Below are positions 20,873 through 35,854 of a DNA stretch of 36,571 nucleotides, piece by piece. Origin of the DNA: Syntrophobacteraceae bacterium. GTDB lineage: Bacteria > Desulfobacterota > Syntrophobacteria > Syntrophobacterales > Syntrophobacteraceae. The DNA is taken from contig JARLHO010000056.1 of assembly GCA_031292215.1 (NCBI GenBank), forward strand, positions 1 to 36,571, written 5' to 3'. The notes below the pieces were generated by a model. The model did no database searches and had not been told where the DNA came from. It was given only the letters and a program-made list of their open reading frames with translations. Both the position numbers and the translations under genes were made by a program. How positions within the stretch are numbered: the first letter of the stretch is position 1; the number at the start of each line of letters is the position of its first letter.

Positions 20873-22834
20873 TTAAAAATTCTGGAGTTCATCGGCATCT
20901 AGCGCCATCACCTTCTCCCGGCGCTTTTCCGCGTCCGTCCCACCTACGTTTCTGCCGTTTCCGGTAAGCTTTGGGCTAACGCCTTTTTGCACGTGGCGCG
21001 TTGGCCGACAAACGGCAGCTTTTTTTTGTGGCGTGTCCGTATCGTTATTGCTTTTTTCTGTTCCGGAATTGCCCGAAGCGCCCACCAGGGCTCTTAGAGC
21101 GTCCACAATTCCCACCACCCGGGCGGCCTGGACGTCCATTTCCGCCGAGGCCGATGCAGTTTCTTCGGCGCCCGCCGAATTATGCTGCACAACCTCGTCC
21201 ATTTCGCTCACAGCCTGGCTGATCTGCTCTATGCCCTGCGCCTGCTCAAGGGAGGCCGCCGAGATCTCGCCTATCAGTTCGCCGGTTTTCCCCACCCCTT
21301 CGGTAACCTCGTGGAATTCCCTTCCGACTTGTTCCACCAGGCCCGATCCCTTCCTGATTTTATGAACGGCGCCTTCGATAAGCGAGGCTGTATTTTTCGA
21401 CGCCTCCGCCGCCCGCATCGCGAGGGTTCTGACTTCATCGGCAACCACGGCAAAGCCGGCGCCGACTTCTCCTGCGCGCGCCGCCTCGACCGCTGCGTTC
21501 AATGCCAGCAGATTGGTCTGAAACGCTATTTCATCAATGGTCTTTATGATTTTGGAAGTCTTTTCGCTAGCCGAAGATATCTCTTTCATCGAGAGGGTAA
21601 GCTCATCCATGGACTGACCGGAGCGAGCAACCGTCTCTTTGGTCTTTTTCATCAACTGATTGGCCTCACCGGCATTATTGGCGTTCTGTTTGATCATCGA
21701 AGATATCTGCTCAAGGGATGCGGAGGTCTCTTCAATGGCGGCCGCCTGCTCGGATGCGCCCTCCGCCAAGAGCCGACTAGAGGATGCCAGTTCCAAAGCG
21801 ACGCAAGATACGCCCTCCGAAGCATTGGAGAGTTTTTTTGTCAAACGGGTCACAGGCCTCGAAATACTTCGCCCTATTGCTATCGACACCCCGGTTATAC
21901 CCAGGGTGAGGATCAACAGCAGCACGAATTCCGTCGATATTTGGCGCACGACGCCGGATTTGATACGCGCGGTAGCCCCGTTTATGATTGCAAGTTCCTT
22001 TTGCTTCAGCGCCCGCACTACGTCGATTTGCTCCGTGCCATTGCGGAAGAAGACCTTGGGATCGATCCCGTAGCTGCCTTTGGCCGAATTTTTCAGGACA
22101 ATGTCAAGAGCGTTGAAAACAGCAACACATCCTGGACTTTTCGGAAAAGAGCGGATTTTTTCCTTCATGTCCCGGCCAACACTAAGGGCCGGAGATTCGA
22201 TACTTGAGCAGGCGCGCGATTTGAAATCCAAAACGCTTTGCACCTCCCGAAAGGAGATGGGACCGTTGGTTGCGAGAATACCGCTCAACGTGCCTCTTAG
22301 TTTAGCCAAATTTTCGCAAACGTTTTCAAAAAGGGCCACGTCCGCCATTAATTTGCCTATTCCCCCCGTGGTTTTCGCATTTACGCCCGCAGTTTCGGTG
22401 GCCAGAACAGCCCCGATAAGATGGGTATAGTCCTGGAAGCATTGCGCCGGGACAACCTTGCCGTCGACACCCTCACGCAGCCGGTCCAGTCGGGACAACG
22501 CCCGACGCGCCCCCTCGCTTGACTTGGCCGATATTTTCGCCCGGTCAAGACTTTTTAGAAAGGTTGCCCGAGCGGAGTCGGTTTTACTCCGTTGTTGGGT
22601 CATTTTCGACTGATCGCCGACTCCTGTGAGAAACAAAGAAGAATTTCCGCGCTCTTCCTGAAGAGCCGAAACAAGGGCTGAAGCGGAGTTGATTAGCCCC
22701 ACATTCGACGCCATCCTGTTGGTTGCCTGCAAAACCCTCCATTCCTTTACAATCATAAAGGATGCAGAGACGATAAAAACGGCGATGGGAATAAAAGCCA
22801 ACGTTGCGATTTTTCGATTTATAGTAAGATTCAC
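20873..22834 (-). CDS. methyl-accepting chemotaxis protein with NIT sensor domain
   Basis: The 653-aa chemoreceptor has TM1 at about 10-29, a periplasmic NIT (nitrate/nitrite-sensing type) domain starting at [20 protein letters not shown] (residues 52-71), TM2 at about 303-321, a short HAMP-like linker and a complete cytoplasmic signalling domain with the hairpin tip [21 protein letters not shown] (about 440-460). After the coiled coil comes a basic, disordered tail of some 70 residues ending DELQNF. NIT domains sense small anions in some proteins, but the ligand is not known here. The start is a GTG with GAGGG about 10 nt upstream, next to a TTGAG-CTCAA mini-hairpin. No che genes are nearby, so it is an orphan receptor. 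kamA-derived sequence lies on both sides. Confidence 0.9.
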
Positions 22835-23770: not shown

Positions 23771-25843
23771 TCACTTTTGGTCCAGCGCCTTGCGAACGGC
23801 TTTTGCAAGCGCGGCGATCGAATATGGTTTTGTGATGACCTGGCAATTGACCTTCTCGCCGTCCCTCTTTGCGACCATATTTTCGCTAAATCCGGTGCAC
23901 ACGATGATCGGAATGTCGGGCCGAACGTCGAGGATTTTGCCGGCGAGCTCCATCCCGGTGATATGGGGCATGGTAATGTCGGTGATAATCAGGTCGAAGG
24001 CCAGGGGCTCCCTGTTGAAAGTCCGGAGGGCGTCGGGACTGCTCAGCTCGGTTCTCACCGTATAGCCAAGCGATTCGAGGATCGCCTTGCCCAATTCGGT
24101 TAAGGGCTTCTCATCGTCTACAAAGAGAATCCTCTCCTTGCCCGTGGGGAGCGTGTCGATCCCTTCGAGCGCCGGCGCCCGGGCTTCCTTGAGCCGTGGG
24201 AACCAGATGTGGAACAGGGTTCCCTGACCGGGCCCGCTTTCGACCTCGATCGCCCCGCCACCGGCCTCGACGATATTTCGGGCCACGGAGAGGCCAAGCC
24301 CCGTACCTTCCCCGACTTTTTTCGTAGTAAAGTAGGGATCGAATATCCGCTCCAGCGTCTCGGGCGCCATGCCGCAGCCGGTATCTCTTACGTCAAGGCA
24401 AATATAGGGCCCCTCCCTCACGGGCCGGCCGGCAACAGCCTTTGGCGCCACCTCCACTTTGCGCAACCCGATGGTCAGAACCCCGCCTTTGTCCCCCATC
24501 GCGTGAGCGGCGTTTATAACAAGATTCATCACCAGTTGGTGAATTTGCGTAGGGTCGGAGAGAATCACGCAATGGGCGGCGTCCCCGGCGATATCCTGGC
24601 GGATCTCGATTGTCGAGGGCAGCGTGGCGCGCAGCAGCTTCATGGCCTCTTTTACAATCAGCGCGAGTTGCACAGGCCTCTGCTCCTGTTCCCTCTGTCG
24701 GCTGAAAGTGAGGATCTGGCGCACCAACTCCTTCGCCCGCAGGCCTGCGGCAAGAATTTGCCCCAGACTTTTCTTCAGCTCCCGATTCTCACGGGCATGG
24801 GCCAGCGAGATCTCGGCATAGCCGGTGATGGCCATGAGAATGTTGTTGAAATCATGAGCGATGCCCCCTGCCAGCGTGCCAATGCACTCCATCTTTTCTG
24901 CCTGCCGCAGGCTCTTTTCGAGGTTCACCTCGTGGGTGACGTCCCGTATCACGCTCACATAGTTAACGATTGTACCCGATGCGTCCCGAACGGGAGAAAT
25001 CGTGACCTCGGCATGAAACGGCGCCCCGCTTTTGCTCCTGTTCAACACGCGCCCCGACCACGCTCCGTCGCGGCCGATAGTTTGCATGACTGTCTCGCCC
25101 GGGGAATCGACCAAGTCCTCCCTGTGGCTGCCGAGTATTTCGCTCCTGTCATAACCGGTTATGCGCTCGAAACCGGCGTTCACATATTGAACAATCCAGT
25201 TCGCATCGTCTATGACGATCCCTTCGGCAACCTGCTCGATGGCCGTAGAAAGGCGCGCGCGCTCCGCCTCGACGCGCTCTCGCGCCGCAATGTCTTGCTC
25301 CAACGCGGACCGGGCCTGCTCCAGTTGCTCCATCTTGGCTTCGAGCTTGCGGATGAGCACTTCGTTGTATTGTTTCAGGCAACCGACCTCTTGCTCTTCC
25401 TGCCCGCCTGCGGAAGGCAGCGATAAATCCCCCGACCGGGCTACGGTAGGGGAGGTCGGCGCGCTCCTGGCCTCTTCGAGCGTCTCTCGAACAATCGCAA
25501 GGAGGGCGGCGGGCGGTTGCGGCTTTACGAGAAACCTCGCTGCGCCAAGGCCCATGGCGAACTCCCTGTCCCGTTGGTCGGTGTAGGTCGCCGTATAGAA
25601 AATGAACGGAATCGGCCGCAACCGCTCGTCCTTTTTCCATTCGCGACACAGGGTGAAGCCGTCCATCACCGGCATCAGGATGTCGGAGACTATCAGGTCC
25701 GGAGGGGATTTTCGCGCCAGCTCGATCGCCTCGACCCCGTTGGTCGCCGTTGCGACCTCGTAGCCAAATCCTCGAAACAGGGTCAAAAGAAGGTAGCGCG
25801 CCTCCTCCTTATCGTCTACAACCAGGATTTTCTCGGTTTTCAT
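23771..25843 (-). CDS. hybrid sensor histidine kinase (REC-PAS-HisKA-HATPase-REC)
   Basis: The 690-aa soluble protein has an N-terminal receiver domain (phospho-acceptor D54 in IVSDILMP, K107), a coiled-coil linker (about 150-195), a PAS domain (from AIEQVAEGIVIDDANWIVQY), a kinase core with the H-box GIAHDFNN (H330), an ATP-binding domain with NLVINAAHAM, DTGCGM and GTGLGLSV boxes, and a C-terminal receiver (IITDITMP). It has no membrane segment, so it works in the cytoplasm as part of a phosphorelay. Its ATG overlaps the stop of the preceding response regulator (ATGA), so the two are coupled. It is the last gene of the reverse sensor series. The REC at each end suggests that it both receives and passes on phosphoryl groups. 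The output partner is unknown. Confidence 0.92.
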   Translation of the reverse strand: MKTEKILVVDDKEEARYLLLTLFRGFGYEVATATNGVEAIELARKSPPDLIVSDILMPVMDGFTLCREWKKDERLRPIPFIFYTATYTDQRDREFAMGLGAARFLVKPQPPAALLAIVRETLEEARSAPTSPTVARSGDLSLPSAGGQEEQEVGCLKQYNEVLIRKLEAKMEQLEQARSALEQDIAARERVEAERARLSTAIEQVAEGIVIDDANWIVQYVNAGFERITGYDRSEILGSHREDLVDSPGETVMQTIGRDGAWSGRVLNRSKSGAPFHAEVTISPVRDASGTIVNYVSVIRDVTHEVNLEKSLRQAEKMECIGTLAGGIAHDFNNILMAITGYAEISLAHARENRELKKSLGQILAAGLRAKELVRQILTFSRQREQEQRPVQLALIVKEAMKLLRATLPSTIEIRQDIAGDAAHCVILSDPTQIHQLVMNLVINAAHAMGDKGGVLTIGLRKVEVAPKAVAGRPVREGPYICLDVRDTGCGMAPETLERIFDPYFTTKKVGEGTGLGLSVARNIVEAGGGAIEVESGPGQGTLFHIWFPRLKEARAPALEGIDTLPTGKERILFVDDEKPLTELGKAILESLGYTVRTELSSPDALRTFNREPLAFDLIITDITMPHITGMELAGKILDVRPDIPIIVCTGFSENMVAKRDGEKVNCQVITKPYSIAALAKAVRKALDQK

Positions 25844-26229
25844 GGACGGCGCTCCCTCGGGGCGTTATCTACATATTGTTCGATCTGGTCAATGAAAGTC
25901 GCAGGCTTTATCGGTTTTTCTATGTAGCCGGTGCATCCCGCCTCCAGCGCTTTCTCCCGGTCTCCGGCCATGGCGTAGGAGGTAACGGCGACGATCGGGA
26001 CATGGTCGAGCGCCGGATTTTTGCGGAGTTCCCGGGCCACGGCGTACCCATCCATGGTGGGGAGCTGGATATCGAGCAGGATCAACCGGGGAAGCTCGTC
26101 TGCGGCAAGCTTTACGCCCTGCGGGCCATCGAATGCCTCAATGACCAAGTATCCGTGTTTTTCGAGCAGAAAGTTCATGAGGTAGCGGTTTTGCTCGTTG
26201 TCCTCGATGAGAAGGACTTTTCCCTTCAT
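25840..26229 (-). CDS. single-domain response regulator
   Basis: The 129-aa protein is a lone receiver domain: acidic pair E9-D10, phospho-acceptor D53 in LLDIQLPTMDGY, T83 in AVTSYAMAGD, and K105 in YIEKPIKP. It resembles DivK/Cph2-like phosphotransfer intermediates and has no DNA-binding or enzymatic output. The start is the ATG at 26229 with AGGGGAAA upstream; an earlier in-frame ATG (26337) would place the start inside the preceding kinase gene. It lies 14 bp after that kinase and overlaps the next hybrid kinase by 4 bp. It is probably a shuttle between the two kinases. Confidence 0.92.
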   Translation of the reverse strand: MKGKVLLIEDNEQNRYLMNFLLEKHGYLVIEAFDGPQGVKLAADELPRLILLDIQLPTMDGYAVARELRKNPALDHVPIVAVTSYAMAGDREKALEAGCTGYIEKPIKPATFIDQIEQYVDNAPRERRP

Positions 26230-26243
26230 GATTTCCCCTTTTC

Positions 26244-29102
26244 TCAGGCCGGCAGGGAAAACGTGAAAACGCTTCCCTCTCCCCATTTGCTCTCGGCCTC
26301 GATTGTACCGCCGAGCAGTTCGGCGATCCTGCGGCAAATCGCCAGCCCCAGGCCGGTGCCTTCGTGCTGACGCGACAGCCCCGTGTCGATTTGCCGGAAG
26401 GGCAGAAACAAGGCATCGAAATCCTCGGGTCTTATGCCGATGCCGGTGTCGGCTATCGCTATGCGGATTTCCGGGCGTGAACTACCCGGCGGGGCGTGAT
26501 CGAGCCGCGCATCGAGCCTTACCCCGCCCCGGTCGGTGAATTTGACGGCGTTGTTTAGCAGGTTCAGCAGCACCTGTTCGAACCGGCGCGAATCGCTCGA
26601 AAGCATGTCGACTTCGGGGGAGATTTGCGCGCGCAGGCTCAGCCCCTTCTTTTCCGCAAGGGGCCGGGCGATCCCAAGGACGTTTTCGATGGAGGTCCGC
26701 ACAGCGAACGGCTTGATGCCGACCTCCAACTGTCCGGCTTCAATCTTGGAAATATCGAGCACGTCGTTAATCAAGCTGAGCAGATGGCTGGAACTTTTCT
26801 CCACCATTTCCAACTGCTTGCGCTGCTCTTCGCTCAATGGGCCCGCCAGCCCCATGAGAATGACGCCGGTAAAACCAATGATGGAATTAAGGGGGGTACG
26901 CAACTCGTGCGACATCGTTGCCAGAAAGGCGGACTTGAGGCGGTCGGCAGCCTCCGCGCGGTCCCTTGCAACAGCCAACTGGGCAGTGCGCTCGGCCACC
27001 CTCCGCTCCAGTCCGGCGTTTAGCTCCCGGATGGCCAGCTCCGACCTTTTGCGGTCGCTGATATCCTCGATAACGACAAGCATCCGCTTGAATCCATCCA
27101 GGGGTATGAGCTTGCTGCAAAGATTTACTGCAATGGATGCGCCGTCCTTGCCCCGGAGCATCACCTCGCCGCAATATTGCCCCTTCTCGCGAAGAGCCTC
27201 GATCATCTGGTCTCGCTCTTCATAGTTGCACCAAAGACCCAGGCCCGGGGAGGTTTGACCGACCATCTCCTCGCTCACGTAACCGAGGACCGCGCCAAAC
27301 GAGTGATTGACATGGAGTAAGGCGCCGTCTTCGGGCCTGCTGATGCACACGCCCAGGGGGAGCATGTCGAAGATGGCCTCGAATCGCTCGCTCGATTCGC
27401 GCAACTCGGCTTCGGCAAGTTTTCGCTCCGTAACATCGCGCACGACAACCTGGACAAGAGTTTCCTCTCCCAGTTCGAGCCGGTTAAGGCTCACCTCGGC
27501 CAGAAACCGCCCCCCGTCGGCCTTGGTGTGCTCCCATTCGAAAAACTGCGGCCCCTCGGACAGGGCCTGCGCGATCTTTTCCCTCGCCTTCTGCTCCGAA
27601 TTCTGTCCGTCGGGCTGGACAAGCGGCGAGAATCGATGGAGCGGAGCGCCAACCACCCGGTCGCGGTCACGGCCAAACATGGTCAACGCCCGGGCGTTGC
27701 AGTCGATGAAGCGTTCCCCGCTAATAAGAAGTATTCCATCGTTGGCTGTCTCGAAGAGTATACGGTGCCTCAGCTCGCTTTTGCGCAGAGCCTTCTCGAT
27801 AAGCTTTTGCTCACTTTCCAACCGCTTCCTGTCGGTTACGTCCGTTAGGACGGCTATGCGGGCCGCGGTGCTCCAAAAGGTTATGTCGTCCGATTGCGCC
27901 ACGATGGTTATCATTGTCCCGTCGGCTTTGCGGTGGCGCCACTCCCCTACGTAGGCGCGCCCCTTGAGGCCGCTTGCCACCTTCGCGATCCGCTCTTTAT
28001 CCTCTTCCGGGTAGAGATCCATTAAAACCAGAGCCAGGGCCTCTTCACGACTGTAGCCGTAGTGGTGGACGAAAGCCTCGTTTACCGCCAGCATCTTGAA
28101 GGTCTCGCGCTGGTAGATCAGCATCGGGACAGGATTGTGCTCGAAGAGCAGGCGGTACCTGCGCTCCTCTTCCCGCAAACTTTCATTGATTCGATCCAAC
28201 TCCCCCGTGCGTTGTCTCACCCTGCGGCTAAAGACCGCGACCGCCCCCAGGCTGGCCAGCAGCGAAAAGCTCATCAAAAGCCCCGTCAGCTTAAGCCATT
28301 CGGGAATGTCGAACCGAACCTTTTCCGAGGTCCAACGCCGCAAGCTCGCATAATAGGCAGATTGCGGATCGGCCTTCATCCCGGCCAGGTGGCGATCGAT
28401 TGCGTCCAGGACGTCGCGGGGCGCATTCCGAGGGGCAGCGAAAAAAAAGGGGGCGGGGTCGAAGATGACGGGGGTGCCAACAAGCCCGTACGCGCGAGCT
28501 TTCATCAACCCATAGAACCGGTTTGTGACTCCGGCGTCGGCACGGCCGTCAGCGACCATCTCGAATTCGGTTTGGTAGTCGGCGACCGGAATCAGGGTGA
28601 GATGCATATCGAAGCCGCCGGCGAGGGTTTTTAAGGTTTGGAGCTGGATGGACTGGGCGAGAACGGCTACCCGTTTCCCCTTAAGATCGAGGATTGTGCG
28701 GATGTGACTCCCTTTGCGTGCGTAGACCTGGGACCAGACAGAGAGCACCGGGACCTTGTTAAAGGAGTAGAGCGCCTCCCGTTGGGCAGTGTAGGCGACA
28801 TCGGGCATGAGATCGATTCGGCCCCGCGCCAGCCGATCGAGCCCCTGCTGCCATGTCCCCTTCACATAGGCGATCTTCCACCCCTCGGCCTTTGCGATTT
28901 GCTCGATGATATCGATGAAGATGCCCGCAGGCCGACCCGATTTTTCCGAAAAGACCTTCGGCGGATTTTCGTAGACCCCTACTTTTATTGTCCGCGAATC
29001 GGCGGAGGCCCAGGATGCGGGGAGGACGGCAACCATCCAGAGGGCGGCAAGAAATATGGCGCAAATCTTGTGGACCCACGCCGTGTCCTTAACTTTCTGC
29101 AT
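26244..29102 (-). CDS. sensor histidine kinase with periplasmic solute-binding domain and three PAS domains
   Basis: The 952-aa protein has a signal peptide or anchor (ending about WASADS), a periplasmic amino-acid-type solute-binding domain (SBP_bac_3; from TIKVGVYENPPKVFSEKSG to the DPQSAYYASLRRW region), one TM helix (LTGLLMSFSLLASLGAVAVF), three PAS domains in series, a coiled coil, and a kinase core with MSHELRTPLN (H732) and N, G1 (DTGIGI) and G2 (GTGLGLAI) boxes. This is the BvgS/EvgS-like architecture in which a Venus-flytrap domain senses a solute. It has no REC or HPt domain of its own; these are supplied by the next two genes. The ATG at 29102 has GAGGAG 8 nt upstream; an ATG at 29126 is less likely. 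An MFS transporter gene lies upstream. Confidence 0.92.
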   Translation of the reverse strand: MQKVKDTAWVHKICAIFLAALWMVAVLPASWASADSRTIKVGVYENPPKVFSEKSGRPAGIFIDIIEQIAKAEGWKIAYVKGTWQQGLDRLARGRIDLMPDVAYTAQREALYSFNKVPVLSVWSQVYARKGSHIRTILDLKGKRVAVLAQSIQLQTLKTLAGGFDMHLTLIPVADYQTEFEMVADGRADAGVTNRFYGLMKARAYGLVGTPVIFDPAPFFFAAPRNAPRDVLDAIDRHLAGMKADPQSAYYASLRRWTSEKVRFDIPEWLKLTGLLMSFSLLASLGAVAVFSRRVRQRTGELDRINESLREEERRYRLLFEHNPVPMLIYQRETFKMLAVNEAFVHHYGYSREEALALVLMDLYPEEDKERIAKVASGLKGRAYVGEWRHRKADGTMITIVAQSDDITFWSTAARIAVLTDVTDRKRLESEQKLIEKALRKSELRHRILFETANDGILLISGERFIDCNARALTMFGRDRDRVVGAPLHRFSPLVQPDGQNSEQKAREKIAQALSEGPQFFEWEHTKADGGRFLAEVSLNRLELGEETLVQVVVRDVTERKLAEAELRESSERFEAIFDMLPLGVCISRPEDGALLHVNHSFGAVLGYVSEEMVGQTSPGLGLWCNYEERDQMIEALREKGQYCGEVMLRGKDGASIAVNLCSKLIPLDGFKRMLVVIEDISDRKRSELAIRELNAGLERRVAERTAQLAVARDRAEAADRLKSAFLATMSHELRTPLNSIIGFTGVILMGLAGPLSEEQRKQLEMVEKSSSHLLSLINDVLDISKIEAGQLEVGIKPFAVRTSIENVLGIARPLAEKKGLSLRAQISPEVDMLSSDSRRFEQVLLNLLNNAVKFTDRGGVRLDARLDHAPPGSSRPEIRIAIADTGIGIRPEDFDALFLPFRQIDTGLSRQHEGTGLGLAICRRIAELLGGTIEAESKWGEGSVFTFSLPA

Positions 29103-29126
29103 CCTGGATTCTCCTCGGCCCCACAA

Positions 29127-29414
29127 CCTCCGCCGAAACGTGGGAGAACCCTCCCGCCTCTCGGTCAGGAGACTGGGAAAGGTCCAGAGTCCCGGGCGTT
29201 ATTATAAGGGGTATGGTCACGGAAAAAAACAGCACGCAAAGATTGAATCCTACCGATGCATGGATTGAGACGCAAGGGAAAAAGAGAGGCAAGGCGATTG
29301 GAACTTGCGCCGGGGAGCGCAGAGGCGGGAGATACAAAAAGGATGTGCTGCGCCCCGGCGCAGGGCGCGTAAGCGCGTTGCGCCGGAGAGTTTATACATT
29401 GGGAAAGCCCATGC
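29127..29414. other. spacer between transporter gene and sensor-kinase gene
   Basis: The 288-bp stretch contains no gene. It holds the hairpin at 29355-29386 and, on the reverse strand, a TATAAT at about 29202-29207 that could be a -10 box for the kinase gene, without a convincing -35 box. Confidence 0.4.
29355..29386 (-). terminator. GC-rich nested hairpin after the MFS transporter gene
   Basis: CCGGCGCA (29355-29362) pairs with TGCGCCGG (29379-29386), and inside it CGCG (29366-29369) pairs with CGCG (29374-29377) around a 4-nt loop. On the reverse strand it follows the transporter stop by about 30 bp. A T-run (CCTTTTTG) comes some 13 nt later, so it is not a classic terminator; it may reduce read-through into the sensor genes. 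Confidence 0.4.
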
Positions 29415-30797
29415 TCACCTGCTGATGGCCACTTCAACCACAGGGGAGCCTTCTGTGGCTACTCCCACGGAGGAGAGCTCAATTTTTCGGGTCTCGGGAC
29501 TAAACAACAGACTGGCGAAAGTAATCGCTGCCCCTATTGTCAGGACAACCGCAGGGGAGAGCCACATGTCCTGTTTTTCAATAGCTGCGATCGCGGGTAT
29601 TCGGTGAGCCCACCACACGTAAACGCTAAACCAGGCGCCCAGAAGCGCCCCCGAAGAGTAGCCAAAACCTACTCCCACCGCTCGCCTCCTGGTTGGAAAC
29701 CGCTCTGCAAGGTAGGCCGGCACTACCCCCCAGGCAAGCTTTAGCATTGCGGCCATTATCGCTCCAACAACCGCAAGCCCGACATTGCGGCTGATAGCCG
29801 CATGGTAGAGAACATAAAAGGAGGGAACGCCGAAAAGAACCAAAAAGACGCAGTAGTTCATGGTGAGACGTTTTCTGCCCCAAAAATCCGAAAGCCACCC
29901 GTAGAAGATATATCCCAGGAAAGCCATAAAGAGGGCGAAGCCGTAAATGAGGCTGTAGGTCGTAGTATCAAACCCACGTCCCCCAAGGGTCAGGATATTG
30001 GGAAGAAATCCATACACGGAATAATCGGTTAGGAAAAGCCCGGTCATAAAGGCGAAGACCTGCAGAAAATCCCAGAGCGCAGGAGGTTTGAACATGCTAA
30101 AAAACGGGGCTTTTTCGATTTTTCCCATCGCTTTATTTTTTTTGTATTCAGGCGACTCAGGCAAAGACTTTCTGATATAGAGCGCAAGGATAACCGGCAT
30201 GATACCGCTCATAAACGCCAACCGCCAACCGTATTGGACCATTGCCCCGTTGCTCACGAAGTGCGAAATCAACGCGAACACCACGGAGGCAAACACATAC
30301 CCCAGGGGAAAGCCCGATTGAATGAAGCCTCCCACCAGGCCGCGACGTTTCGAAGGAGAATGTTCGATGGCAAATGTATGGCCAACCGCGTATTCTCCAC
30401 CGAAAAAAACTCCCATGACAAATCGGAGCACGCAAAAGATCACATAAGCCCAAACCCCGCACATTGCCTGCGTCGGCATAAAAGCCGAGAGCAGCGAGAT
30501 AAGGCCGACGCCTCCTATGGTGAACACCAGCAAAGCCCGACGGCCGATCTTATCGGCGTAATGGCCGAAGATGGCCGAGCCTACGGGCCGTGCCGCCATC
30601 GTTATGGAATAGGTAAAGATGATCGTAATATACTGCCAGGCCGCGGAACCGTGCGGCGATGTGAAAACTTTTACCAGAATCGGGGCCATGATAAGCACAA
30701 GGGCCATATCATAGGCGTCGAGCATGAAGCCCAAAAACTGTGACATCATCGCCATCCTGGTATCTTTTCCTAGTTTCGTCTCGATTTGCGCCGACAT
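29415..30797 (-). CDS. MFS transporter, carboxylate/sialate-type (MHS/SHS-like)
   Basis: The 460-aa, 12-helix inner-membrane carrier starts with a short cytosolic tail, then LGFMLDAYDMALVLIMAPIL. The MFS loop signature GHYADKIGRRALLV follows TM2, and FFGGEYAVGHTFAIEHSPSKRRG in the TM4-5 region, with a second-half YGWLSDFWGRKRL, matches the proton-coupled carboxylate (sialate/lactate/metabolite:H+) symporter branches. Import of a small organic acid is likely; the substrate is not predictable. The ATG has GAGGAG about 9 nt upstream. It is divergent from the Cache-domain kinase gene and precedes the SBP sensor kinase, so its solute may be what these sensors detect, but this is inference. Confidence 0.85.
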   Translation of the reverse strand: MSAQIETKLGKDTRMAMMSQFLGFMLDAYDMALVLIMAPILVKVFTSPHGSAAWQYITIIFTYSITMAARPVGSAIFGHYADKIGRRALLVFTIGGVGLISLLSAFMPTQAMCGVWAYVIFCVLRFVMGVFFGGEYAVGHTFAIEHSPSKRRGLVGGFIQSGFPLGYVFASVVFALISHFVSNGAMVQYGWRLAFMSGIMPVILALYIRKSLPESPEYKKNKAMGKIEKAPFFSMFKPPALWDFLQVFAFMTGLFLTDYSVYGFLPNILTLGGRGFDTTTYSLIYGFALFMAFLGYIFYGWLSDFWGRKRLTMNYCVFLVLFGVPSFYVLYHAAISRNVGLAVVGAIMAAMLKLAWGVVPAYLAERFPTRRRAVGVGFGYSSGALLGAWFSVYVWWAHRIPAIAAIEKQDMWLSPAVVLTIGAAITFASLLFSPETRKIELSSVGVATEGSPVVEVAISR

Positions 30798-31293
30798 GAC
30801 AATAGCTCTCCTCTGTTAGTGGCCGTTTTGGAATTTTCCTAATGAGGGCAAAAAGTTATTTTAGGATAATACGTTCTCTTTGCCCCTTGATCGGGGCCCG
30901 GACGGCAGGCATAATGAGCAAGGAAAATGCCAGGAAAGCGCGCGCGGCGCCCGCGGCAGGTTTGCCGCACCTCCGATGACCGTTCCAATTAAGTTTTGGG
31001 CTCTTCCGGCCACCAGGCAAACATCGATTCGCCGGGATTGCCGGCCACCAACGGGCGGCGAATTTTCGTCTTCGCTAAAGACCCCGAAGAGGTTGTGAAT
31101 TACTTTGAAACTCTTGCGTGGCGCCAATGTGTCGGAAATGGCGAAAAGCCGACACCGTCTGGCGAAAATCCGCCACATTTTGAGGGGGTTTTCTATTTAG
31201 TGGTTTTCAAAAATCGGCCTCCTGAACCAGGGGGCCGATCGCCGCAGCTGCGCCAGTCCGCGGCCTACGTTTTCGCCCCTTGAGAGGCTTGCC
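30798..31293. other. divergent control region, MFS transporter / Cache kinase
   Basis: The 496-bp intergenic region has no credible gene. It contains three TGGCG motifs at 31119, 31139 and 31160 plus an inverted copy at 31171-31175, and a dyad at 31129-31155. No clear TGGCAC-N5-TTGC sigma-54 element was seen by eye on either strand. Confidence 0.5.
31119..31175 (+). promoter_or_regulatory. phased TGGCG repeats and GTGTCGG dyad, candidate operators
   Basis: TGGCG starts at 31119, 31139 and 31160, 20 and 21 bp apart, close to two helical turns; the last two extend to TGGCGAAAA. An inverted CGCCA is at 31171-31175. GTGTCGG (31129-31135) and CCGACAC (31149-31155) form a 7-bp dyad within the array. 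The spacing suggests cooperative binding of a regulator on one face of the DNA. Confidence 0.4.
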
Positions 31294-34200
31294 ATGAATT
31301 TGCGGTTCTCCATCGCCAAAAAATTCGTATTCGCGTTTCTCCTGTTAGCCTTGGCGCCCATGGTGGTGCTTGGCTTCTGGACTTTGCGAAGTATGAGGCA
31401 GGTGGGGCAAGGCGCAATAGAGAGCTCCACAGCTCTTCTGGAGAGCCGGGCCGGCCAAGCCCTGGAACTGCGCGCCGTAGATCTTGCCAACCGAGTCAGT
31501 CAACTTCTCCAGTCGTGCGAAGCCGATCTGCTGACACTCAAGATGCTGCCGCAAAACCCCGAGGTTTATCGCAGGTTCTCTTTCAACCACCAAAGAGACA
31601 TTTGGGTCCGCGATCTGGCAAGCGGCAATCCGACGGGAATTCACAAGATAATCCCGCTCTATAAGGAAATCGCCTTTATTGATGCCGGCGGCATGGAACG
31701 GGTGCTCATCGCGGACGGGCAAATCGTTGACTCATCCAAACTGCGAAATGTCGGCAAACCCGAAAACACCACCTACAAGTCGGAGAGGTATTTCGGGGAG
31801 GCTTCAAAGCTTGCATCGGGCGAGATATGGATTTCCCACCTGCGCGGGTGGTATGTCAGCCGTGAGCAAGCCCTGCGCGGCAGGCGATATGAAGGGGTCA
31901 TCCGTTTTGCAACCCCTTGCAGGGACAGCCGGGGACGCCTGGAAGGGGTACTGGTGCTTTCCCTGGACTCACGGCATTTAATGGAGCTCACCTCGCATGT
32001 GCTGCCCTCCGCGAAAAAGTCGGGATTCCCAACGTATTCGAGCGGTAACTACGTCTTTCTCTTTGATGATGAAGGCTGGATCATTTCACACCCCAAGCCC
32101 TCGGACATTCGAGGCGTTCTTCCGGATGGAAAGAGTTTTAGCACATCGCCTGAGTCCTACACCCGAGACAAGCTTCTTGCGGGCCTGGAGCCTTTCAATC
32201 TCGACCACGTAAAGTTTATAAACCCCAATTATCAGTTGATTGCCAAAGAGGTGCGCGCGCTGCGCTCGGGAGTAACGAGCACCTTCAACGTGGCGGGGAC
32301 TCCGAGGATAATGGCCTATGCGCCGATACTCTGCGACCGCCCCCCTTACAACCGCCATGGCATATTCGGAGGAATCACTGTCGGGCTCGAAACGGAGAAG
32401 TTCAAGGAGCCGGCGCTGCTGGCCAGCCTGAAGATAGACGAGATGGTCGCCAAAACCAAGCGCAACAGCATTTTTGTCCTCGCCGGCTCAACGCTTCTTG
32501 CCATCGGTCTTGCCCTCGTCCTTTCGAGGACATTTACCCGGCCGATCCTCTATCTTGCCGCCAAGGCCAGGGAAATTGCGTCGGGACGCATTGTGGGCGA
32601 GGTGGCCGTTCGAACGGGGGACGAGTTGGAGGTGCTCGCCGTTAATTTCGCCCACATGGCAAGCCAGATCCTCGATCACCGCAAAAGCCTGGAGGAGTCG
32701 CTCCGCGAGCTGGCCCAGTCCAAAATGGCCGTCGAGCGCCACACGGAGCAACTCGAAAAGCAACTGCGGGTCCTAAATAACATTCATTACCTCAGCCAAT
32801 ATCTTAGCACAGTCTATGACCACGATCAGGTGCTGCGCACAGTCCTAAAGAGCTGCGTGGAAGGCCTGGGCTTTGACCGGGCAATTCTCTATCTGTTCGA
32901 CAACCGGTCTAACCGATTGGTCTGTCACAATACGTACGGGTTTTTGGCCGAGGAGGAAAAACTTGCCGTAGAGGCCTCCTACGATATCGATCTTCACGAT
33001 TGCATCCCTACCAGGGCGTTTCGCGACTCGAAGACAATTTTCGTAAGGGACATCCGTTCGGAAAAGCAAGCCACGCCGCTCGATCTACAGATCTTCAGCA
33101 AGGGAGGGAGCGACTTTTTTGTTTTTACGCCCATAAAAAGCCAAGGGTCGGTCAAAGGGGTTCTCGGCGCAGACACCAAGCTCTGCCGGCGCGAGATTAA
33201 ACAAATCGATGTCGAATCCCTTGAGATTCTAGCAAATGATGCCGCCCGTGCGATGGAACACTCCGAACTCTACAGCCGCCTGGTCTCGGAGCGCAATTTC
33301 ATTGAATCCATCGTTACCCATATAACCAATGGGATTATAACCCTCGACGCCGGGGGAAAAATCAGCTGGTTTAATCCCTACAGCGAAAGGGTATTTGGCT
33401 GCAGGCGCGAGGAAGTCCTGGCGCTGCATTACAGCGAGGCTTTCGCCTTGCTGCCGTCCTGGGTCGATACTATTGACAAGAATTTTGCCTCCCCGGATGG
33501 AAATCCCATCGAAGTGCGGACCGTTTTCCCGGACGGCAAAGAAAAGGTCCTGGACGTCCATTTTTCGACCATCCGGGAAGATGCTTTTCTTTTAATTATC
33601 CAGGATATCACTCAGCGAAAGCTCATGGAAGAGCACCTTCGCAGATCGGATCGGCTGATCAGCCTCGGGGTGGTGGCCGCCGGGATTGCCCACGAAATAC
33701 GCAATCCTTTGACCGGAATTTCGCTGTTATTAGACGACCTGCACGACCACCTCCATGAGATGCCCGAAGAACGGGAACTCATCTGGAGATCGCTCCAGCA
33801 AATCGACAGGCTCGAAAACCTTGTAAACGGCCTGGTGGATTTCGCCGTCCCCTCGAGCCGGATGAAGTTCGAGTTGCGTCCCCTGGGCGGGGTATTGGAA
33901 AATACCCTGTTTCTTACGAAAAAATTGTGCAAAGACAATAATATTTCACTCTCGGTAAAGACCGAGGAATCTCTTCCCCGGCTGCGCCTGGATTCCGAGA
34001 AAATGCAACAGGCCCTTTTAAATCTTTTGATGAACGCCATTCAGGCCATGGACAAGGGCGGCGCACTGAGGATCGAGGTAAAAACCATTTCGCCGGAAGA
34101 GCTCGGCGAGTCCCGTTCTTCGGTGCGAATAACGGTGGAGGACACCGGACGGGGCATTGCCGCCGAGGATATCCCGTATGTATTCGATCCTTTCTTTACT

Positions 34201-34347
34201 CGCGGCAAATCGGGTTGCGGCCTGGGGCTGGCTATCGTATACGGTATCATAAGAGAACATGGGGGGCGGATTAGCCTCTCCAGTAAGCCCGGCAGCGGAA
34301 CCACTGTCCGGGTCGATCTGCCCGTAGTGGAATCGGCCGGCGCTTAG
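31294..34347 (+). CDS. membrane sensor histidine kinase (Cache-HAMP-GAF-PAS-HisKA-HATPase)
   Basis: The 1017-aa protein has TM1 (about 9-28), a large periplasmic double-Cache-like domain (about 35-380, with FVFLFDDEG-type and MAYAPIL segments), TM2 (about 391-411), HAMP (from LSRTFTRPILYLAAKAREIA), a coiled coil, a GAF domain (about 500-655), a PAS domain (from IVTHITNGIITLDAGGK), and a kinase core with GIAHEIRNPLTG (H800) and N, G1 (DTGRGI) and G2 (GCGLGLAIVYG) boxes. The HEIRNPLTG box is of the NtrB/AtoS type, matching the NtrC-family regulator encoded next. It is translated from an ATG with GAGAGG about 6 nt upstream. Periplasmic Cache domains usually bind small carboxylates or amino acids; the ligand here is unknown. 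Confidence 0.92.
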   Translation: MNLRFSIAKKFVFAFLLLALAPMVVLGFWTLRSMRQVGQGAIESSTALLESRAGQALELRAVDLANRVSQLLQSCEADLLTLKMLPQNPEVYRRFSFNHQRDIWVRDLASGNPTGIHKIIPLYKEIAFIDAGGMERVLIADGQIVDSSKLRNVGKPENTTYKSERYFGEASKLASGEIWISHLRGWYVSREQALRGRRYEGVIRFATPCRDSRGRLEGVLVLSLDSRHLMELTSHVLPSAKKSGFPTYSSGNYVFLFDDEGWIISHPKPSDIRGVLPDGKSFSTSPESYTRDKLLAGLEPFNLDHVKFINPNYQLIAKEVRALRSGVTSTFNVAGTPRIMAYAPILCDRPPYNRHGIFGGITVGLETEKFKEPALLASLKIDEMVAKTKRNSIFVLAGSTLLAIGLALVLSRTFTRPILYLAAKAREIASGRIVGEVAVRTGDELEVLAVNFAHMASQILDHRKSLEESLRELAQSKMAVERHTEQLEKQLRVLNNIHYLSQYLSTVYDHDQVLRTVLKSCVEGLGFDRAILYLFDNRSNRLVCHNTYGFLAEEEKLAVEASYDIDLHDCIPTRAFRDSKTIFVRDIRSEKQATPLDLQIFSKGGSDFFVFTPIKSQGSVKGVLGADTKLCRREIKQIDVESLEILANDAARAMEHSELYSRLVSERNFIESIVTHITNGIITLDAGGKISWFNPYSERVFGCRREEVLALHYSEAFALLPSWVDTIDKNFASPDGNPIEVRTVFPDGKEKVLDVHFSTIREDAFLLIIQDITQRKLMEEHLRRSDRLISLGVVAAGIAHEIRNPLTGISLLLDDLHDHLHEMPEERELIWRSLQQIDRLENLVNGLVDFAVPSSRMKFELRPLGGVLENTLFLTKKLCKDNNISLSVKTEESLPRLRLDSEKMQQALLNLLMNAIQAMDKGGALRIEVKTISPEELGESRSSVRITVEDTGRGIAAEDIPYVFDPFFTRGKSGCGLGLAIVYGIIREHGGRISLSSKPGSGTTVRVDLPVVESAGA

Positions 34348-34432: not shown

Positions 34433-35854
34433 ATGGAAAAGATACTTATTGTAGACGATGAAGACTTCATCCGAGAAAACCTGGAGAGGATCCTCAAGGA
34501 AGAGCGCTACCGCACCGCAATCGCCAAAAACGGGGAAGAAGCCCTTTCGTTTCTCAAAGAAGCCTCCTTCGACCTGGTATTTCTCGATTTGAGGCTGCCG
34601 GACATCTCCGGCATCGAGATCCTAAAAAAAATCAAGGAATCCGATCCCGATCTGCTGGTGATCGTTATGACCGGATACGCTTCGGTGGAATCCGCTGTCG
34701 AGGCATTGAAGTCGGGGGCCTACGACTACATAAAGAAGCCCTTCAAAGCCGATGTGATAAAGCTTATTGTAAGGCTTGCCCTGGAGGCGCAGAGCCTCAA
34801 ACGGGAAATCCTCTCGCTCAAAAAACAGCGAGAAGGTGCTCGGGGCAACCGGCCCGTCATCATTTCGAAAAGTCTTGCGATGAAGGAGGTTTTGATCCAG
34901 GTCCGCGAGGTTGCCAAGCATGCCGAGACCACCGTTTTGATTACCGGAGAGACGGGAACGGGAAAAGATCTTGCCGCGCGCGCCATTCACGATCTTAGCT
35001 CCAGGGCCAACCGGCCGTTTATCGAGGTCAATTGCGCAACCCTTCCGGCAAACCTGCTCGAAAGCGAGCTGTTCGGTCATGAGACCGGAGCGTTTACCGG
35101 CGCCAGGGGCAGGAAGATCGGACTCTTCGAAGCCGCGAGCACCGGGACTATTTTTCTCGATGAAATCGGGGAAATGGAATTGGGGCTGCAGGCAAAACTG
35201 CTTCGAGTGCTCGAAGACAAAAAGATCCGAAGACTTGGAGGAACGCAACTGCATGAAATCGATGTACGCATCATTGCCGCCTCAAACCAGGATCTGCGCG
35301 AGGCCATAAAGGCCGGCCGTTTTCGTGAAGATCTCTTCTACAGGCTCCATATCGTGCCGATACATATGCCGCCCCTAAGAGCTAGACCGCAAGACATCCT
35401 CGCCCTCTCGAACCATTTCCTCTCCGAGTACGCAAAGAAATTTTCCCGAAACTTCGAAGGCCTCTCCAGGGAGGCGGAAGTTCTTTTGCAGTCTTACTGC
35501 TGGCCGGGCAATGTCCGCGAGTTGCGCCACGTGGTGGAAAGAATCTGCATTATGCACGACGCCAAAGTCCTGGGTCCCGAACATCTGCCCAAGGAACTCA
35601 CTCCGCAGGTGTGTGACACAACCCTTGCCGCCGACCCCATGCATTTCCCTCTCCCGCCGGGAGGATTCAAACTCGATGAGATGATCGAGCGCTTTACTCT
35701 TCATCTGGTAGTCGAGGTCATGCAGAGAGCCGAGGGAAATATTTCAAAGGCCGCAAAACTTCTGGGAATCCCAAGGGGGACGCTTAGATATAAACTGGAT
35801 AAATTTTCACTCGAAGGATATCCGGGAGAAAAGAAGCCGATTTCTTCGCTATAA
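34433..35854 (+). CDS. sigma-54-dependent NtrC-family response regulator
   Basis: From the ATG at 34433 the 473-aa protein has a receiver domain (D52 in VFLDLRLPDISG; IKKPFKAD lysine), an AAA+ sigma-54 interaction domain with Walker A GETGTGKD, the GAFTGA loop that contacts sigma-54, Walker B TIFLDEIGEM and the FREDLFYRL segment, and a C-terminal Fis-type helix-turn-helix (ISKAAKLLGIPRGTLRYKL). It activates sigma-54 promoters when phosphorylated. Upstream in-frame starts exist (ATG 34421, GTG 34373); the longest would place the 34379-34404 hairpin inside the gene and lacks family sequence, so a start at 34433 or 34421 is preferred. It is paired with the kinase gene before it; target genes are not identified. 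Confidence 0.94.
   Translation: MEKILIVDDEDFIRENLERILKEERYRTAIAKNGEEALSFLKEASFDLVFLDLRLPDISGIEILKKIKESDPDLLVIVMTGYASVESAVEALKSGAYDYIKKPFKADVIKLIVRLALEAQSLKREILSLKKQREGARGNRPVIISKSLAMKEVLIQVREVAKHAETTVLITGETGTGKDLAARAIHDLSSRANRPFIEVNCATLPANLLESELFGHETGAFTGARGRKIGLFEAASTGTIFLDEIGEMELGLQAKLLRVLEDKKIRRLGGTQLHEIDVRIIAASNQDLREAIKAGRFREDLFYRLHIVPIHMPPLRARPQDILALSNHFLSEYAKKFSRNFEGLSREAEVLLQSYCWPGNVRELRHVVERICIMHDAKVLGPEHLPKELTPQVCDTTLAADPMHFPLPPGGFKLDEMIERFTLHLVVEVMQRAEGNISKAAKLLGIPRGTLRYKLDKFSLEGYPGEKKPISSL

Follow-up and report, generated by a model that had tools for sequence, protein, structure and literature searches.

A putative dual-receiver two-component cassette with a DivK-like lone receiver in a Syntrophobacteraceae genome

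Histidine kinases of the BvgS/EvgS type sense solutes through domains of the periplasmic-binding-protein kind. Phosphate can also travel in reverse, from a receiver to a histidine of the DHp (dimerization and histidine phosphotransfer) type, as from Spo0F to Spo0B; to our knowledge, its transfer from one receiver to another is impossible without a histidine intermediate. In Caulobacter, the lone receiver DivK promotes the phosphorylation of PleD by PleC in vitro, and a D90G form of DivK does not stimulate PleC, as reported in two studies (PMC10790692, PMC3772055). Here, we analyse three adjacent genes, coding for a solute-binding-protein (SBP) and PAS domain sensor kinase, a lone receiver, and a third protein that opens with a receiver of its own (REC1, about 25490-25828). 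They lie in a 36,571-nucleotide stretch of DNA from a Syntrophobacteraceae bacterium (assembly GCA_031292215.1, contig JARLHO010000056.1; hereafter, the window), which is contig C158, in our numbering, of a 4.89-Mb assembly that is about 97% complete.

An original prediction, made from the letters of the window, had described this trio as a split phosphorelay preceded by a carrier of the major facilitator superfamily (MFS). Open reading frame (ORF) calls, translations and Pfam confirmed the four minus-strand ORFs where it had placed them (Table 1), together with the 14-bp gap between the kinase stop and the lone receiver start (26230-26243) and the 4-bp overlap, ATGA, between the lone receiver and the third gene (25840-25843); the domains it had named all exceed the curated Pfam cut-offs. 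We propose, with moderate confidence, a different reading of how these parts work together, namely that the trio is a dual-receiver two-component cassette in which the lone receiver modulates or buffers the first kinase and REC1 drives the output, the carrier being separate. The argument rests mainly on gene order and on the swapping of outputs.

Distribution and gene order of the cassette

Profiles were built for the REC1 receiver of the third protein (A1) and for the lone receiver (A2), and were run against 40 genomes of relatives (G numbers below), a sample of 395 genomes of the phylum, and named genomes, for which the best 80 of 571 confirmed stretches were taken. The REC1 and the lone receiver of the window score 229.5 and 242.8 bits to their own profiles, by construction, both having been seeds. 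Among the relatives, the REC1 profile gave 12 matches of at least 177 bits before a drop to 102, and the lone-receiver profile 11 matches of at least 180 bits before the next at 139; as eight of the 12 REC1 matches had been seeds, the relatives are hardly independent evidence. In the phylum sample, 65 REC1 matches (57 genomes) and 71 lone-receiver matches (65 genomes) were found at E<=1e-38, counts that include the window's own matches and that are lower bounds, because the searches scored 10 candidates per genome. In the named genomes, REC1 reaches at least 131 bits at 29 loci and at most 106 bits at 51. Among the matches listed, the higher-scoring loci include Geobacter, Anaerolineae, Melioribacter, Hydrogenedentota, Chthoniobacter and Cloacimonetes, as well as the methanogens Methanolinea, Methanocalculus and Methanoregula.

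Gene order was counted at sites with at least 450 bp upstream, after two duplicate rows had been dropped. A lone receiver lies directly upstream of REC1 at 21 of 29 named sites (among the matches listed), at 45 of 61 phylum sites and at 10 of 12 sites in relatives, and, wherever the sequence reaches far enough to show it, a kinase stands directly before that lone receiver in 20 of 21 (again among the matches listed), 41 of 44 and nine of nine cases, respectively. For the low-scoring control receivers, the recount gave a lone receiver directly upstream in 4/51 (in a first count of 5/51, one hit was the same ORF), and in 4/36 of those controls that open their protein. In the phylum sample, a lone-receiver match is found upstream of REC1, on the same strand and within 1000 nt, at 47 of the 65 sites, and 43 of these 47 lone receivers lie 6-49 nt from the REC1 gene. 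The window has the same order of kinase, lone receiver and REC1 protein on one strand, and its trio appears to be one copy of a widespread cassette found across bacterial phyla and methanogens. The proposal that the kinase, receiver and hybrid genes form a real unit is supported, and their order recurs widely in relatives, in the phylum and in named genomes; the gene-order search that had been suggested as a check found the order in other phyla and in methanogens as well as in the window genome.

Within the relatives, orthologous trios are present in G004, G005 and G007 and, at the level of gene order, in G030. In G008 and G003, a homologous kinase bearing a different sensor precedes a lone receiver and then a REC1-type receiver with a sigma-54 output; in a second G003 trio the third gene is without the sigma-54 output. 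Incomplete versions were also seen, one with an SBP kinase and a lone receiver (L018, G020:C12) and one with a kinase and REC1 (L192, G008:C37). A description of the cassette was not found in the literature searched, including the available parts of PMC11784639, PMC2991266 and PMC3333781; most subscription papers lay outside that search.

Swappable outputs and the place of the lone receiver

The complete trios number 71 (20 in named genomes, 42 in the phylum sample and nine in relatives), and the phospho-acceptor Asp54 of REC1 is kept in every one of them. By Pfam, the C-terminal ends of the third proteins are HisKA-HATPase-REC, HisKA-HATPase, HisKA_2-type kinases, HD-GYP, sigma-54/Fis or PAS. 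Sorted by output, the 71 trios comprise 38 kinase-REC, 11 HD-GYP, seven HisKA_2-type or other kinases, five sigma-54 and three plain kinases, the remaining seven being cut or unclassified; a GGDEF output was found neither in the window protein nor among the output classes of the trios surveyed. When the outputs are placed on a quick tree of the kinase core and lone receiver, 15 changes are needed without the unclassified rows and 22 with them. The sigma-54 output takes three changes and the HD-GYP output seven, at least four of which are forced by well-supported branches. This swapping makes a response regulator, with a REC1 input and an exchangeable output, the best reading of the third protein, and the comparison shows REC1 as the constant, predicted input to which a changing output is joined.

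In the window, that output is a CckA-like hybrid kinase with a C-terminal receiver. Its DHp domain has an HDFNN box and the receiver follows the HATPase, and among NCBIfam models the protein reaches 329 and 279 bits to two CckA models (cut-off 1000) and a higher 373 bits to PRK13557 (cut-off 631). Nothing nearby was recognised as a candidate for the final target of that receiver.

Two departures from the usual third gene were observed. In the second of two tandem trios of G003 (L021, G003:C110, 14017-14994), REC1 and its linker are fused in frame to what look like a membrane segment and a domain of the rhodanese type, assigned by reading the sequence and not by Pfam, and the gene looks as if its output had been lost and replaced. 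At L064, L267, L301 and L059, an extra REC-HD-GYP or REC1-type gene follows the third gene, an arrangement suggesting that one kinase serves several outputs; at L059, a kinase was not seen directly before the receivers.

The sensor kinase of the window consists of SBP_bac_3 (residues 39-247, about 28362-28988; 59.7 bits, Pfam cut-off 26.4), three PAS domains, HisKA and HATPase, and is without a receiver of its own. Its predicted phospho-acceptor is His732 in HisKA, and the corresponding His is kept in 70 of the 71 trios, with one gap. Among solved chains, a bacterial sensor protein (3h7m, 53 bits) comes nearest to the SBP domain; behind it rank an ancestral amino-acid binder, an EAL-domain protein and the binding domains of glutamine transporters. 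Among the 65 trio kinases, out of 71, that were scanned, SBP_bac_3 is the commonest periplasmic sensor (30), ahead of Phosphonate-bd (12), dCache (10) and MASE1 (three), so that sensors of the periplasmic-binding-protein kind are frequent in the cassette.

Across the 71 trios, sequence distances of the kinase correlate with those of the lone receiver at 0.82 (partial correlation 0.72) and with those of REC1 at 0.63 (partial 0.31); the two receivers correlate with each other at 0.59 (partial 0.17). The maxima after shuffling were 0.39, 0.28 and 0.28 in the same order. In half-samples, the partial correlation of kinase and lone receiver ranged from 0.61 to 0.79 and does not overlap those of kinase and REC1 (0.20-0.42) or of the two receivers (0.00-0.33). 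At position 16, in helix 1, both receivers have Tyr in 58 of the 71 trios, and in the nine trios with neither Tyr nor Phe at this position of the lone receiver REC1 is also without Tyr. This covariation fits one kinase recognising both receivers; equally strong covariation is seen at kinase positions outside the phosphotransfer domain, shared ancestry may explain the pattern, and we do not rely on it.

The lone receiver has D10, D53, T83 and K105 and the equivalent of D90 of DivK. The phospho-acceptor Asp53 is kept in all 71 trios and the D90 equivalent in 70. Over a single domain, the PDB entry that the lone receiver matches best is DivK (101 bits, against 79 for the next), the 104 bits of PleD being the sum of two receivers of which the better gives 78. 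A tree of 60 receivers took in 18 of the 71 lone receivers, and these cluster with DivK and with the receivers found at the C-terminal end of hybrid kinases (SH-aLRT 85, a moderate support). Cousins of the cassette were found in G020, G036 and G024 (L315, L316 and L317), where a hybrid kinase has three or four receivers, the last of them resembling the lone receiver (101-117 bits), and a REC-kinase-REC gene comes 10 to 438 bp after it; G036 and G024 belong to one genus and are nearly identical. The first receiver of that REC-kinase-REC gene scores 93-96 bits, below the level of the REC1 family, and groups with PleD, and in G026 a cousin hybrid kinase is present with no REC-kinase-REC gene following. 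The idea of a split hybrid sensor retains limited support from this arrangement, but the receiver that follows falls outside the REC1 family. Being kept through changes of output, and being fused to a kinase in the cousins, the lone receiver most likely has its role on the side of the kinase.

In the mechanism that we favour for the dual-receiver cassette, the periplasmic SBP domain would bind a solute and thereby set the autophosphorylation of the sensor kinase on His732, and the kinase would phosphorylate both Asp53 of the lone receiver and Asp54 of REC1. Phosphorylated REC1 would then switch whichever output is fused to it, here the CckA-like kinase with its C-terminal receiver. The lone receiver may serve as a DivK-like allosteric modulator, or as a phosphate buffer, of the first kinase; in either role it would set how strongly REC1 is phosphorylated, and would carry no phosphate to the second kinase.

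Several points weigh against this reading. Though common, the cassette is not obligatory: 24 of the 71 phylum lone-receiver matches have no REC1 match beside them, and the adjacent lone receiver is absent at 8/29 named, 16/61 phylum and 2/12 relative REC1 sites. In the tree used to count output changes, 23 of 68 inner branches are unsupported. Shared ancestry inflates all three distance correlations, and taking partial correlations corrects for it only incompletely. An Asp at the D90 position is common among other receivers and is not diagnostic of a DivK-type role. Moreover, the NCBIfam models matching the lone receiver are BarA (85 bits), HrmK (84) and PleD (84), all below their cut-offs, those of BarA and HrmK being receivers of hybrid kinases; as NCBIfam does not single out DivK, the term DivK-like rests on the PDB match and on a moderately supported tree. 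Finally, both the flow of phosphate and the DivK-like role are what we infer from sequence.

The strongest competitor, which we regard as possible though unlikely, is that the lone receiver is a second, CheY-like output, phosphorylated by the SBP kinase and binding an unlinked target, for example a motor or an enzyme. Its catalytic residues are intact, and a gene for a methyl-accepting chemotaxis protein (MCP) with a NIT (nitrate/nitrite-sensing) domain lies 936 bp downstream of the third gene on the strand of the trio (20873-22834). There is also precedent in the Fil system, in which FilI phosphorylates both the lone FilR2 and FilR1 and a preliminary ChIP-PCR tied FilR2 to promoters (PMC3991700). 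However, the distances of the lone receiver track the kinase more closely than those of REC1 do, and its best single-domain PDB match is DivK, not CheY. In addition, when the longest ORFs within 1500 nt downstream of the third gene were compared by eye in 62 of the 71 trios, no common gene emerged; one gene is common to three close relatives (L268, L273, L278).

A role as shuttle between the SBP kinase and the second, cytoplasmic hybrid kinase, as in the original prediction, is improbable. It would be chemically feasible, given the reverse transfer from Spo0F to Spo0B, and the cousins, with a lone-receiver-like domain fused to the upstream hybrid kinase, are in its favour. However, the lone receiver is kept in the 16 trios, out of 71, whose third protein, with an HD-GYP (11) or sigma-54 (five) output, lacks a kinase, and this persistence with non-kinase outputs is the ground on which the shuttle was demoted. 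The Asp of REC1, present throughout, provides a direct route from the SBP kinase, and with direct transfer a shuttle is not needed. Nor is there an evident histidine intermediate: Pfam found no histidine phosphotransfer (HPt) domain among the seven window proteins scanned, and no free-standing HPt was found in the genome, where the six PF01627 matches each lie inside an ORF of 593 aa or more (the search did not extend to other phosphotransferase families).

The carrier and the divergent kinase/NtrC pair

Table 1. Coordinates of the trio and of the features beside it in the window.
Feature	Coordinates	Strand	Remarks
Third protein, REC1-PAS-HisKA-HATPase-REC	23771..25843	-	690 aa; Pfam, NCBIfam
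Lone receiver	25840..26229	-	129 aa; Pfam, PDB comparison, residue counts
SBP-3xPAS sensor kinase	26244..29102	-	952 aa from ATG 29102; Pfam, translation
MFS carrier	29415..30797	-	460 aa; nearest curated model 2A0106, below cut-off
Sigma-54-like -24/-12 site	30917..30932	-	about 120 bp upstream of MFS start
Divergent dCache-HAMP-GAF-PAS histidine kinase	31294..34347	+	nearest curated model AtoS, below cut-off
NtrC-type sigma-54 response regulator	34433..35854	+	nearest curated model AtoC, below cut-off

The stop of the carrier gene and the start of the sensor kinase gene are separated by 312 bp, a spacing at which a carrier followed by the trio does not mean one shared operon; scans for sigma-70 promoters and terminators between the two genes gave nothing usable. 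The best NCBIfam model of the carrier is the 2A0106 metabolite/H+ symporter (205 bits, cut-off 443). On the other side of the carrier, the divergent kinase reaches 269 bits to the AtoS model (cut-off 646) and the NtrC-type regulator, whose start codon is uncertain (34373, 34421 or 34433), 481 bits to AtoC (cut-off 714), both in NCBIfam.

Among the 40 relatives, close homologues of the carrier (77-89% identity) are found in G009, G010, G003 (two copies) and G005. The Cache-kinase/NtrC pair adjoins the carrier divergently in G009, G010 and G005 (L040, L041 and L044), at 69-76% and 72-79% identity to the two window proteins, and in all three genomes malic enzyme is the next gene after the carrier. 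The pair was not seen beside either carrier copy of G003 (L042, a 4.4-kb contig, and L043). In the window genome, malic enzyme is not beside the carrier, and one weaker match lies elsewhere (86 bits, contig C93). G009 and G010 have no family-level match to the lone-receiver or REC1 profile, and their best matches to the SBP kinase span the PAS and kinase regions only (6.5e-54 and 1.2e-59). Conversely, the trio is present in G004 and G007, where homologues of the carrier are no more than distant (29% identity), and in G005 the trio is on contig C96 and the carrier with the pair on contig C80.

A sigma-54-like site, TGGCATTTTCCTTGCT (30932-30917), precedes the carrier in the window. Similar sites precede it in L040 and L041, and L044 has a weaker candidate. 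Matches of this kind in the window are not above chance (two found, 5.07 expected), so that the site counts only through the like sites in L040 and L041. The shared neighbourhood in relatives, together with these sites, makes the pair the likely controller of the carrier. Thus, the carrier probably belongs with the divergent Cache-kinase/NtrC pair, separate from the trio; the pair probably controls it through sigma-54, and its substrate is probably malate or a related organic acid. Together, the carrier, the site, the pair and, in the three relatives, malic enzyme resemble a malate-type uptake-and-use unit.

Three further proposals of the original prediction can be judged from these neighbourhoods. 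The description of the carrier as carboxylate-type does not follow from its own sequence, which falls short of the model, and gains support from the neighbouring genes in relatives, which point to an organic-acid carrier. As a part of the phosphorelay system, the carrier was rejected on its gene neighbourhoods in relatives, where it goes with the divergent pair. The divergent NtrC-type regulator, put forward as the missing output, is not supported in that role; it has its own kinase next to it, and G009 and G010 carry the pair with no family-level match to the two receivers of the trio. That carrier, trio and pair form one solute-response island, with the carrier moving the ligand of the SBP domain, is very improbable: they are adjacent in the window genome and the solute-sensing BvgS/EvgS-type kinases offer a precedent, but the carrier and pair occur without the trio receivers (G009, G010), the trio occurs without a close carrier (G004, G007) or on another contig (G005), and the neighbours of the carrier in relatives are malic enzyme and a sigma-54-like site.

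Wider meaning and comparison with known systems

A broader and more tentative proposal is that DivK-type receivers are the constant core of a cassette spanning bacterial phyla and methanogens, a portable engine of kinase and DivK-like allosteric receiver to which interchangeable outputs are connected via REC1. If this were true, DivK-type receivers would be no alphaproteobacterial cell-cycle oddity, and a single sensing engine would serve a second kinase, sigma-54 transcription or c-di-GMP hydrolysis. Lone receivers beside kinases are often given no function or are called phosphate sinks; here, a family of them remains with the kinase in many phyla although the effector differs, so that its purpose can be tested directly in many genomes at once. 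The cassette would also supply a rule for reading many uncharacterised kinase loci, and its natural output swaps a resource for the engineering of two-component systems.

For the genes beside the trio, the nearest curated models of the divergent pair are kinase/NtrC pairs for organic-acid use of the AtoS/AtoC type; unlike these, the pair falls below both cut-offs and stands next to an MFS carrier, with malic enzyme after the carrier in three relatives. The sensor kinase shares with BvgS/EvgS-type hybrid kinases a periplasmic binding-protein sensor on a histidine kinase. It differs from them in that the receivers are on separate polypeptides and that, by Pfam, the locus has no HPt, and its kinase core gives 127 bits to EvgS, for which the cut-off is 1995. 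The second kinase of the window has the HDFNN-type DHp and C-terminal receiver of CckA-type hybrid kinases; unlike CckA, it adds an N-terminal REC1, sits in a three-gene cassette and scores far below the cut-offs.

The FilI-FilR2-FilR1 system of Methanosaeta harundinacea resembles the locus in that a kinase is cotranscribed with a lone receiver and a second regulator gene is adjacent (PMC3991700). Unlike the third gene of the window, filR1 is transcribed divergently; its product FilR1 is a DNA binder of the order wHTH-DUF1724-REC, with the receiver at the C terminus (PMC5847659), whereas the window protein has the order REC1-PAS-X. The Fil system was rejected as a true relative on this domain order.

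A close parallel is DivJ/PleC-DivK-PleD of Caulobacter crescentus, where, as here, one kinase is paired with a lone receiver and with a multidomain regulator that has an N-terminal receiver. The likeness to DivK lies in the best single-domain PDB match, in the tree grouping, and in the kept catalytic residues and D90 equivalent. The window kinase differs from DivJ (172 bits, cut-off 1000), and in place of the diguanylate cyclase of PleD the third protein has a kinase-receiver at its end in the window and, in other trios, HD-GYP or sigma-54. By analogy with the Caulobacter proteins, the lone receiver may stimulate the window kinase allosterically, in the manner of DivK.

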